In this document: positions 47,749 to 51,857 of the stretch, piece by piece
Numbering within the stretch: position 1 is the stretch's first letter
How the letters are laid out: the number at the start of each line of letters is the position of its first letter
NCBI GenBank assembly: GCA_021299385.1
Contig: JAJTGZ010000007.1
Span: 23,055 to 87,054, forward strand
Source: Phycisphaeraceae bacterium
GTDB lineage: Bacteria; Planctomycetota; Phycisphaerae; Phycisphaerales; UBA1924
Direction: 5' to 3'
DNA: 64,000 nt
Notes under the pieces: generated by a model
The model's input: only the letters and a program-made list of their open reading frames with translations
Told to the model about the DNA's origin: nothing
Databases searched by the model: none
Program-made: the position numbers and the translations under genes

Positions 47749-48519
47749 ATGAATCGTTCTGTTGCACTTGTTGGTTGTGGCGTCCGCGCTGGCAGATGCG
47801 CGTTGGTCGGCGTGTTTGCGCTGCTTTTGAGCGCAGGGTCTGCCTCGGCAGTTGAGGTCATCACGCTGCGGAGCGGTCAGGTTGGCGGGTTGCCCGGCGT
47901 TGCTGGCCAAGCCGACGACACCGTGCGTTTCCTCAACGGGGCGAACCCACCTGGTGGCCCGGTGAGCCTCAGCCCCTTCACGGCGGCAGACTTTGCCGGT
48001 GCGGCCGGAGGCCCGGCCGCGACGGTGGTCAACGCCCACCCGGCGTGGACACCTGGCATCAGCGACCCGTTGGCGCGTTGGATCAACTGGAAGGCCGACT
48101 TGACTGTTGCCCCCGACGGGAGCGTGAGCGGGACGGGATATGGCTCACCGGGCTCGGCTCTTTATGCCGTGCCCTTTGTTGTTACGACCCCCGGCGGAGC
48201 GCTGACGGCAACGCTTGCGCTTGAACTGGCCGTCGATGATGCCCACGGGGACTGGTTTGTTGCTGGCCCCAACCCCGACGGGTTGTATGTCAACGGCGTG
48301 AGCACGGGCTTTCAGGGTGGCAACTACGCCTCGCCAACGCTGCACTTTCAGAACATCACGGTGAACACTGGGTTGAACTACCTTTACTTTTACCAGCGCG
48401 ACCTGGGCGTGCTCGTCAGCGGGCTGATCTTCAGCGCGACGATCACCGTCCCGACACCCGGCGCGGCTGCGCTGCTGGGTCTGGGCGGGTTGGTGGCGGT
48501 TCGTCGTCGCCGTCGGTAA
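47749..48519 (+). CDS. Secreted protein with PEP-CTERM-like tail
   Basis: Signal peptide; C-term PTPGAAALLGLGGLVAVRRRRR. Confidence 0.85.
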   Translation: MNRSVALVGCGVRAGRCALVGVFALLLSAGSASAVEVITLRSGQVGGLPGVAGQADDTVRFLNGANPPGGPVSLSPFTAADFAGAAGGPAATVVNAHPAWTPGISDPLARWINWKADLTVAPDGSVSGTGYGSPGSALYAVPFVVTTPGGALTATLALELAVDDAHGDWFVAGPNPDGLYVNGVSTGFQGGNYASPTLHFQNITVNTGLNYLYFYQRDLGVLVSGLIFSATITVPTPGAAALLGLGGLVAVRRRRR

Positions 48520-48602: not shown

Positions 48603-49292
48603 ATGCAAAGGGAGAAAGCGATGGACAGAACGATAATCCGCCGGGGTGTGTGCGCCGCTGCGGTTACCGCTGCGCTCTTGGTTGCGGTGGCCGGGACTCG
48701 GGCTGATGTCATCAGCAGCGGTTCGAACTTCATCCAGCCCGGTTTTGTGTACGAGATGCCCGGTGCTGCACTGCCGATTTCCTTTGGAAACGCTGGCGGG
48801 AGTGTGGGGAGCCTGTCGGGGTTCAGAATCATCAGCACCACGGGCCAACCCTCTCCGGTTGGCGAGGCAACTACGCGGAGCACACAACTGGGGACAGGCT
48901 CGATGACGTTCACTGACAACGCCGGGATTGTGAAACTGCTGTCGTTCCAGTATCAGTCGCTTTTGGCATCGCGCCGGCGCGATACCGGCGGCACGCGGGC
49001 GACGATGGACATCGCCGTCGAGGGGATGGACTTCGCGGGCCTGCCGTCGTGGATTTCGCTGCGTGAATGCCCGACGATCGTTTCGACCGGCTTGGCGACC
49101 GTTGAGGACCTTGGCAACGGCCAGTTCCGCATCGTCGGGTCGTTTGAAATCTACACCGAGATCAGTTTCGACAGCGGGCAGTCGTGGATCCCCGCGTCTG
49201 GCCCTGTGCATGTGGACCTTGTGCCGACGCCATCGGTGGCCGCGCTGATGAGCCTGGGCGGGCTGATGGCCGCTCGGCGTCGGCGGTCGTGA
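48603..49292 (+). CDS. Secreted protein with divergent PEP-CTERM-like tail
   Basis: C-term PTPSVAALMSLGGLMAARRRRS. Confidence 0.78.
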   Translation: MQREKAMDRTIIRRGVCAAAVTAALLVAVAGTRADVISSGSNFIQPGFVYEMPGAALPISFGNAGGSVGSLSGFRIISTTGQPSPVGEATTRSTQLGTGSMTFTDNAGIVKLLSFQYQSLLASRRRDTGGTRATMDIAVEGMDFAGLPSWISLRECPTIVSTGLATVEDLGNGQFRIVGSFEIYTEISFDSGQSWIPASGPVHVDLVPTPSVAALMSLGGLMAARRRRS

Positions 49293-49396
49293 TTGATTTC
49301 GCCGTGCACCCGGCCAGCGCCGGGCGCACGGCTTACAGGCTTGGCTTGTGCCAGGCCCAATTCCCAGGGCCGAGAGGCCCAGAAAGAGAGAGCCTT

Positions 49397-50335
49397 ATGC
49401 GTACGCCCATCACCTTTGCCTCCGTGCTGCTCGGCCTGTCTGCGGCGGCCTCCGCGCAGATCACCATCCCGACCGTAACCATCGGCAACGCCGGCAACGC
49501 CGGGGAGACGACGATCAACGGCACGCGCGGTGCTGTGGCGTACAGGTACGACATCGCAACAACAGAGGTGACCAACGCGCAGTACGCCGCGTTCCTCAAC
49601 GCGGTGGCCGCGACGGATACCAACGCGTTGTACAACATCAACATGGCCGGCGCGCTCGGCGGGATCACGCGGTCGGGATCTTCGGGCTCATACACCTACG
49701 GCACCATCCCGGGGCGGGCGAACAACCCGGTTAACAACGTGAGTTTCTGGGACGCCGCACGCTTTGCCAACTGGCTGCACAACGGGCAGCCGAGCGGCCC
49801 GCAGAACAACAGCACCACCGAGAACGGTGCCTATACGCTCACGGCCACGGGGATCACGAACAACACCGTAACCCGCAACAGCAACTGGCAGTGGGCCGTG
49901 GCGAGCACCGACGAGTGGTACAAGGCCGCGTACTTCCAGCCAGCGAGCCAGGGTGGGGACACGGACAACTATTGGTCCTACCCCACCAGCAGCAACACGC
50001 CCCCGACGGCCGGGCAGGCCAACTACCTTCCCGCCAACATCAACGACACGACCCCGGTTGCTTCTTATGCTGCGAACTGGGCGGGCGTCTACGACATGGC
50101 CGGCAATGTGTATGAGTGGAACGACACGAACCTCGCCTTCACACGCGGGCCGATGGTTGGTGGCGCGTTCGACAACATCGCAGGGTGGCTGACGCCGCTG
50201 AACGCATACGCGCCGTTCGCGTCGGCGGAGCGGGATCAGCTCGGCTTCCGCGTGGTGGCGATCCCCGGGCCTTCGGCCGCCGCGCTGCTGGTGGTTGGCG
50301 GGGTGGTCGCGGGGCGCCGGCGTAGGCGGGGGTGA
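49397..50335 (+). CDS. SUMF1/FGE-sulfatase-fold secreted protein with PEP-CTERM-like tail
   Basis: TTEVTNAQYAAFLNAV, NPVNNVSFWDAARFANWLHNGQ, VYDMAGNVYEWNDT, GFRVV; tail PGPSAAALLVVGGVVAGRRRRRG. Confidence 0.87.
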   Translation: MRTPITFASVLLGLSAAASAQITIPTVTIGNAGNAGETTINGTRGAVAYRYDIATTEVTNAQYAAFLNAVAATDTNALYNINMAGALGGITRSGSSGSYTYGTIPGRANNPVNNVSFWDAARFANWLHNGQPSGPQNNSTTENGAYTLTATGITNNTVTRNSNWQWAVASTDEWYKAAYFQPASQGGDTDNYWSYPTSSNTPPTAGQANYLPANINDTTPVASYAANWAGVYDMAGNVYEWNDTNLAFTRGPMVGGAFDNIAGWLTPLNAYAPFASAERDQLGFRVVAIPGPSAAALLVVGGVVAGRRRRRG

Positions 50336-50567
50336 GGCCGGGGTAAGTCGATCGGCCGAGGGCGGTTGATATTCTGCGAGGTAGATGCGGAGGGTGCGTC
50401 GAGCGCGGAGAGAACGGCCGAGCCGGTGGTCATGCCGTGCGCGGTGGTCCAGCAGGGCGAGGGCGAATGGTGGGTTCGTTCCCGCTGGAGGGGATCGGGG
50501 TTCGTAGCGAAGGTAACATATGGGAACTCGGCGATTGCCGTCGGCGCATAATCATGTGCCGTTGATC

Positions 50568-50686
50568 CTCTCCGGCCCCATCGGGGCCGCGGGGTGTAGC
50601 CACGGGTGCAGCGACGCGGCTCTGAGCGTCGCGGAACCCGTGGTGGACGGGGGGGGAGCGCGGGCCGCCCCGATGGGGCGGAGGAG
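50568..50686. repeat. Nested palindromic element A
   Basis: Outer arms ctctccggccccatcggggc / gccccgatggggcggaggag; inner arms ccacgggtgcagcgacgc (50600-50617) / gcgtcgcggaacccgtgg (50626-50643). Confidence 0.85.
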
Positions 50687-50716
50687 AATGGCTGTTCGAG
50701 GAGTTACACTTTGTCC

Positions 50717-50917
50717 ATGGCCGAATTGACTTGGGCAGAAAAACAGATTCTGGAAAAAGGGCTGGTGATGAGCACTGGCGTTGTTCTAGATTTCACAGAT
50801 CGCAAGTTTCGGTCGTTCGTGATAGACAGCACGGGACTAGACATTGAGGACGCAAAGTACAGGGTGCCAACTCTGGTTCACCACTCGAAGGCGAATCGCC
50901 TTCGAGAGTTTTTATGA
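50717..50917 (+). CDS. Abi-family N-terminal-domain-like protein, first part
   Basis: MAELTWAEKQILEKGLVMSTGVVLDFTDRKFRSFVIDSTGLDIEDAKYRV...SKANRLREFL*. Confidence 0.6.
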   Translation: MAELTWAEKQILEKGLVMSTGVVLDFTDRKFRSFVIDSTGLDIEDAKYRVPTLVHHSKANRLREFL

Positions 50918-51066
50918 GCGAGTCTAATCATGTGGTCAGCAAGTTGATTGCTGACCTCGTCGAGTACGCGCCTCTGTCGGAAAGTCCACCATCGGCAGAG
51001 CTACTGCATAGATGCCAGAACATCGCCGAGCGACTCGGACGTGGGTGGCGAGTGGACCGGTTGTGA
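50914..51066 (+). CDS. Small ORF continuing the Abi-type N-terminal domain (-1 frame, ATGA overlap)
   Basis: MSESNHVVSKLIADLVEYAPLSESPPSAELLHRCQNIAERLGRGWRVDRL*. Confidence 0.5.
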   Translation: MSESNHVVSKLIADLVEYAPLSESPPSAELLHRCQNIAERLGRGWRVDRL

Positions 51067-51521
51067 AATCGCTCAAATGGGACGTGATCGACAACGCCGA
51101 GTTTGAGCGCCTGGTGTTCAACCTCGTATCCCAAGCCAAAGGATACAGCAATGCAAAGTGGTTGATGCACACGAACGCCCCGGATCGCGGTCGAGATGTG
51201 TCGGTCGAGCGAACTGTCACCGATCAGTTGACCGGGACACGCGTCTACCGTGTCATCGTGCAATGTAAACACTGGCAGAGCAGGAGCATCCGTATTGCGG
51301 AGGTAACCACGCTTGTTGCGCAGATGGAATCGTGGGAGCCCCCCAAGATAGACGAACTCATCATTGCCACAACGGGCAAGTTCACGGCGGATGCCGTCGG
51401 TTGGATTGAAAAGCGGAATAATGATCGCCAGTCTCCCACCATCTTGATGTGGGCTGACAGTCATATGGAATCGCTCTTGGCTGAGCGCCCACACTTGGCC
51501 ACGGAGTTCGGACTCAGGTGA
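51063..51521 (+). CDS. Mrr-like restriction endonuclease (PD-(D/E)xK fold)
   Basis: GTG start overlapping previous TGA; FERLVFNLVSQAKGY...DRGRDVSVE...YRVIVQCKHW...ELIIATTGKFTADAVGWIE. Confidence 0.78.
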   Translation: MKSLKWDVIDNAEFERLVFNLVSQAKGYSNAKWLMHTNAPDRGRDVSVERTVTDQLTGTRVYRVIVQCKHWQSRSIRIAEVTTLVAQMESWEPPKIDELIIATTGKFTADAVGWIEKRNNDRQSPTILMWADSHMESLLAERPHLATEFGLR

Positions 51522-51572
51522 CACGCTCTGCTCCACCCCTACCGGTGCGGGTCCGTTGAATCATATCGCTTT

Positions 51573-51650
51573 CCACGGGTTCCGCGTCGGCGGGCTACGC
51601 CACTCCGGCGCTCCACCCCTGGCTACACCCCGTCGCCCCGTTGGGGCGGG
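51573..51650. repeat. Palindromic element B, inverted relative to element A
   Basis: Reverse complement cccgccccaacggggcgacggggtgtagccaggggtggagcg...gacgcggaacccgtgg matches element A at both ends. Confidence 0.8.
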
Positions 51651-51857
51651 GGGGCGGGGTCGCTGCGAGCACTCGACGGCAATCATCCCCGATGATCACG
51701 TATGTAACTTAATACTTACTGGGCCCGATCGTGTGCACCTGAGGAGCCGCCTATCGGCATTGCTGGAATAGAAACCTGCTCGTAATTTCTTAAGGTTGAG
51801 GGTTGGAGCGGTGGGCGTATTGCTTTGCCTACTTCGGAATCTAAATCACCATCGCGG

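Follow-up and report, generated by a model that had tools for sequence, protein, structure and literature searches.

Candidate RAYT/REP-type cargo element around a split AbiJ-NTD2-like and Mrr nuclease gene in a planctomycete genome

The locus and its bracketing repeats

The window (the whole stretch of 64,000 nt that was analysed, from a Phycisphaeraceae bacterium of the Planctomycetota) contains a cassette of three overlapping ORFs, joined by an ATGA at 50914-50917 (ORF1/ORF2) and a GTGA at 51063-51066 (ORF2/ORF3), each of which is a -1 frame change. The ORFs, their positions and both overlaps are present as described in an earlier sequence-only reading of this DNA. That reading had also suggested acquisition from the base composition, and this suggestion has gained ground, since GC is 0.55-0.57 in the cassette versus 0.63-0.69 around it and repeats lie on both sides; the segment looks acquired. 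The repeats themselves, a pair of REP/RAYT-type arms bracketing the cassette (Table 1), had been missed.

Table 1. Features of the locus, and cargo of the arm pairs that lack a Y1 transposase
Feature	Coordinates	Strand	Description and supporting matches
Left REP arm	50567..50690	+	~120 nt; GTAG-tagged REP hairpin between an outer and an inner palindrome; nhmmer arm model 64 bits
ORF1	50717..50917	+	66 aa + stop; first part of the AbiJ-NTD2-like N-terminal domain; colinear with intact homologues
ORF2	50914..51066	+	50 aa; rest of the N-domain begun in ORF1, -1 frame relative to ORF1
ORF3	51063..51521	+	152 aa, GTG start; predicted Mrr_cat PD-(D/E)xK nuclease domain with E15, D45, Q67-x-K69
Right REP arm	51531..51652	-	inverted relative to left arm; nhmmer arm model 71 bits; inverted repeats I1, I3
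Whole arm-cargo-arm element	50567..51652	.	1086 bp; arm-pair census
Cargo, window			AbiJ-NTD2-like + Mrr gene; PADLOC PDC-M58A
Cargo, L083 (source genome, contig C59)	1608-2735		PD-T7-5 homologue; PADLOC 5.5e-72
Cargo, L090			PDC-S11/NucS-like; PADLOC PDC-S11 1.7e-131
Cargo, L157			TIR-like CBASS effector; PADLOC CBASS TIR effector 3.5e-16
Cargo, L158			FRG/PDC-S15; PADLOC PDC-S15 4.9e-28
Cargo, L161			Mrr + nSTAND3/PDC-S73; PADLOC PDC-S73 1.2e-142
Cargo, L097			deoxyribosyltransferase/TIR-like protein
Cargo, L159			GIY-YIG-like nuclease
Cargo, L086 and L087			genes without assigned identity

The arm model used with nhmmer is 121 nt long and has three parts. The palindrome on the outer side is CGCCCCAACGGGGCG, the GTAG-tagged REP hairpin is GTAGCCACGGGT...ACCCGTGG, and the palindrome on the inner side finishes with GGAGGA(G). 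Folded as single-stranded DNA, the left arm has a z of -5.5; the arm-hairpin fold is significant for the left arm only. At least 66 related copies of this arm occur in the source genome, and arm repeats recur across the planctomycete family and order. Both GTAG REPs and REPtrons that carry a RAYT have been described before, including from Planctomycetes (PMC3733652). The repeats found here resemble REPtrons and REPINs with RAYT (PMC3733652, PMC3116915) in their inverted GTAG-tagged hairpins, their abundant short doublets and the presence of doublets around a Y1 transposase, but here a defence-type gene stands in the transposase's place. No RAYT/Y1 transposase lies between the arms of the element in the window; elsewhere in the source genome, two arm doublets enclose an intact RAYT.

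Some minor features of the arms and their surroundings were also seen. The arms create spurious ORFs (motifs HPWLHPVAPLGRG and VATPRRPVGA), at 50606-50917 and 51556-51771 of the window and at many loci, which gene-calling programs may take for proteins. At another locus, about 10 tandem 32-nt copies of the arm's outer part adjoin a RAYT element (L119, 1890-2241). Three successive genes of the window (47749-48519, 48603-49292 and 49184-50335) encode a PEP-CTERM-like tail, a short hydrophobic stretch followed by RRRR.

A known fusion spread over three frames

ORF3 is a predicted Mrr-type PD-(D/E)xK DNA nuclease, judged from both its sequence and a structure model. It matches the Pfam model Mrr_cat (PF04471) at 2.1e-12, with 47.6 bits where the cut-off is 21, and E15, D45 and Q67-C-K69 are invariant in the motif alignment. 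The motifs from which the nuclease had originally been recognised, GRDV...IVQCKHW and IIATTGKFTADA, are both there. The AlphaFold2 model (pLDDT 89.7) is a confident PD-(D/E)xK fold, for which the top Foldseek match was AspBHI (1.8e-6), followed by AF1548 and, lower down, the defence protein Avs4. AspBHI, the best solved match, is a modification-dependent restriction enzyme. Profile searches against the PDB with the nuclease and the N-terminal domain returned no sequence relatives. In PADLOC, ORF3 matches PDC-M58A over nearly its full length (3.8e-12) and is the only gene recognised from the candidate PDC-M58, ORF1 and ORF2 together matching no PADLOC model; we know of no tested function for PDC-M58A. 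Rhizobial single-gene Mrr "restriction endonucleases" (WP_208613764.1, WP_121557808.1) align with ORF3 across the entire nuclease domain at 50-54% identity but have an N-terminal region of their own, of ~240 aa and unrelated to ORF1 and ORF2. Given that the N-terminal region differs in the close relatives of ORF3, the nuclease behaves like an interchangeable module.

Joined together, ORF1 and ORF2 form one N-terminal domain of ~107 residues of the kind found in abortive-infection proteins; homology thus bears out what had been proposed for them, though no Pfam model covers the domain. Searches with the joined sequence found domains of ~28-50% identity at the N-terminus of intact proteins, the C-terminal parts of which are Abi_C, TIR, SEFIR/TIR or Mrr_cat. 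The conserved M..G.V.F....F, I and SKA..R are kept in ORF1, and the alignment with the homologues crosses junction 1 without loss. Among the domains AbiJ-NTD1-5 named by Anantharaman et al. in 2013, AbiJ-NTD2 has ~100 aa and a strand beside helix 1, is fused to AbiJ, Mrr REase and TIR, and had members wrongly absorbed into DUF3644 (PMC3710099); one of the homologues found here is labelled DUF3644. Judged by length, fusion partners and a strand read from the sequence, the N-domain fits AbiJ-NTD2 best. Homologues at 28-49% identity share the length and the fusion partners (HEPN/Abi_C, TIR and Mrr), and a strand can be read after helix 1 (YVLDFS).

The C-terminal HEPN/Abi_C of abortive infection proteins is absent here, with the Mrr_cat of ORF3 instead, an arrangement that the sequence-only reading had considered possibly undescribed, and unusual. 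Neither description can be kept. At least six bacteria encode the N-domain and Mrr_cat in one frame, each in a single intact gene; the products are plasmid proteins of Leptospira, Mesorhizobium, Rhizobium, Agrobacterium, Vibrio and Serratia annotated as "restriction endonuclease", and AbiJ-NTD2 + Mrr REase was listed by Anantharaman et al. (PMC3710099). The cassette differs from such fusions in spanning three frames, and in its Mrr subfamily, with RGRD...QCKHW in ORF3 versus GEQIDGSF...LLEAKW in the plasmid proteins. Searches for a fused copy with ORF3's own Mrr subfamily gave separate halves only, and a pattern scan and tblastn found no relatives in viral contigs or phages. The possibility that Abi-like and Mrr pieces lie side by side by chance was rejected, since the fusion exists as intact single genes. 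In plasmids of Agrobacterium and Sinorhizobium, an N-domain + Mrr gene is preceded by an AbiEii-type toxin gene and immediately followed by Hachiman hamA (L046, 3022-4626; L057, 2522-4119).

All of the N-domain relatives seen are single genes, and among them the three-ORF layout occurs here only. The sequence-only reading had pictured single intact genes elsewhere and decay here as the case in which the cassette would be a pseudogene; given that the layout is confined to this locus, this is largely what emerged, the single intact genes being observed and decay being the likeliest account of the split. A -1 start/stop overlap is automatic whenever the stop TGA is preceded by A, G or T, and simulated one-base losses produced one in 57% of cases for the 42 genes of the window and in 43% for low-GC defence-type genes, such that the overlaps alone are no evidence of coupling. 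Because the relatives are all single genes and such overlaps are common by chance, the cassette is most likely a formerly single gene split by two recent one-base frame changes, that is, a broken copy which has presumably lost its function.

It is unlikely, in our view, that the three ORFs constitute a working translationally coupled operon, with pieces that reassemble into a sensor-nuclease. Such an operon would account for the start/stop overlap at both junctions, exactly where ORF2 and ORF3 start, for an N-domain split that costs no conserved residue, and for an intact nuclease motif in a cassette without other damage. A functional split would also fit the out-of-frame tail at junction 1, which is unusually short (1 codon or less, 4-6% by chance); a tail of 9 codons or less, as at junction 2, is expected in 21-31%. 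However, the N-domain relatives are one gene in every case, each overlap is expected by chance at 43-57%, ORF2 and ORF3 are both preceded by a weak ribosome-binding context, and the division of a ~107-aa domain into 66 + 50 aa has no precedent in the homologues seen. Both frame changes could instead be assembly or sequencing errors in a gene that is really single and intact, which we regard as quite improbable. The source assembly, with 111 contigs and 95% completeness, speaks for such errors, but the 42 other coding-like ORFs of the window run over long stretches without interruption, which suggests a low error rate, and two errors within 800 bases would be unusual. Programmed -1 frameshifting was rejected, as no canonical slippery heptamer could be made out by eye at either junction. 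The cassette, read as a recently split gene, is probably an ordinary, broken member of a known fusion family, with an architecture that was already known.

Arm pairs and their cargo

Loci for a census of arm pairs were picked as search hits by similarity to the arms of the window, and the counts are of sampled loci. There were 70 head-to-head arm pairs, of which 49 spanned ~333 bp or less, 10 spanned 708-754 bp with a Y1 transposase (PF01797 at 2.2e-25 in one of these), and 11 were without it. By size, the pairs fall into classes of ~260 bp (empty), ~730 bp (with RAYT) and 1.0-2.9 kb (with cargo), and the three-hairpin layout of the arms is common to the RAYT elements and the cargo elements. 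Cargo was found in 10 of the 11 pairs without the transposase, mostly at lower GC than the surroundings (Table 1), while one pair, L123, contains no convincing ORF.

PADLOC matches (E <= 1e-10) were found in 6 of the 10 cargo pairs versus 1 of 66 other genes, the latter taken by a simple ORF rule from the source genome only. The Fisher p for this enrichment is 6.4e-6, or 4.2e-5 without the window and 7e-3 within the source genome without the window. A first control set of 72 genes was set aside for this comparison because some of its genes lie next to solo arms, and several of these code for methyltransferases. The "PDC" models of PADLOC are predictions; PD-T7-5 is an experimentally tested system.

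DNA methyltransferases and a Vsr endonuclease were also seen next to REP arms that are solo or RAYT-associated, in part within low-GC stretches (L192/L197, L195/L198, L164, L170, L136, L193). Partner arms of these loci were not found within 12 kb where the loci were extended. The solo arms near such stretches fit either of two readings, larger carriers with one arm lost or REPs that mark defence-rich places.

Possible carriers or markers of defence genes

We lean towards the reading that the arm-cargo-arm unit of the window is a RAYT/REP-type cargo element, in which a single acquired anti-phage gene is enclosed by two inverted GTAG-type REP arms. This gene would encode a protein that joins an AbiJ-NTD2-like sensor domain to a DNA nuclease of the Mrr type, and the copy here, in three frames through two one-base frame changes, is most likely recently broken. 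By analogy with the published model for AbiJ-NTD proteins, the N-domain of the intact form may restrain the nuclease and release it on infection, and the freed nuclease could then cut phage DNA, host DNA or both. A RAYT whose gene lies elsewhere in the genome probably recognises the arms in the form of single-stranded hairpins, and this RAYT could act in trans to move arm-cargo-arm units. The wider proposal, to which we give tentative and not quite even credence, is that paired RAYT-type REP arms act as carriers in this planctomycete family, taking up single anti-phage genes and moving them, and would constitute a new vehicle for defence genes. The cargo listed for it comprises Mrr fusions, PD-T7-5, NucS-like, FRG, TIR-like, GIY-YIG and Mrr-STAND proteins. 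Flank synteny comparison found no empty insertion site in relatives, because the flanks are not syntenic there.

It is possible, if somewhat doubtful, that the REP arms are no carriers at all, and that defence genes landed in existing REP doublets or that REPs accumulate in defence-rich, gene-poor spots. REPs are known to serve as insertion targets of other elements, for example ISPpu9 (PMC8450116). The solo arms, which also border low-GC regions with methyltransferases, mean that arms may only mark defence-rich regions. Against this, the gene in most cargo elements sits ~90-170 nt from the outer arm ends, about the same offset as the RAYT gene, and the arms around it mostly retain all three hairpins. 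In one genome, G505, the only two copies of the repeat that were found are the arms of a single cargo element. Moreover, no RAYT or recognised transposase or integrase was seen inside the cargo elements.

The defence gene in the transposase's place between RAYT-type arms is the part worth follow-up. RAYT transposases are regarded as domesticated, with REP sequences as their sole partners, and in the literature that our search covered, which was incomplete, we found nothing linking RAYT/REP elements to defence cargo. RAYT-type elements with single defence genes would extend a known mobile element. If RAYTs do move arm-bounded defence genes, this would help to account for the spread of small single-gene systems beyond classical defence islands, prophages and Tn7-like elements, and paired arms ~1-3 kb apart without a RAYT would offer a sequence handle for new defence genes. 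A possible pair of 4.3 kb, with a weak left arm (29 bits), was seen around a lower-GC stretch at L208 (6896-11223).
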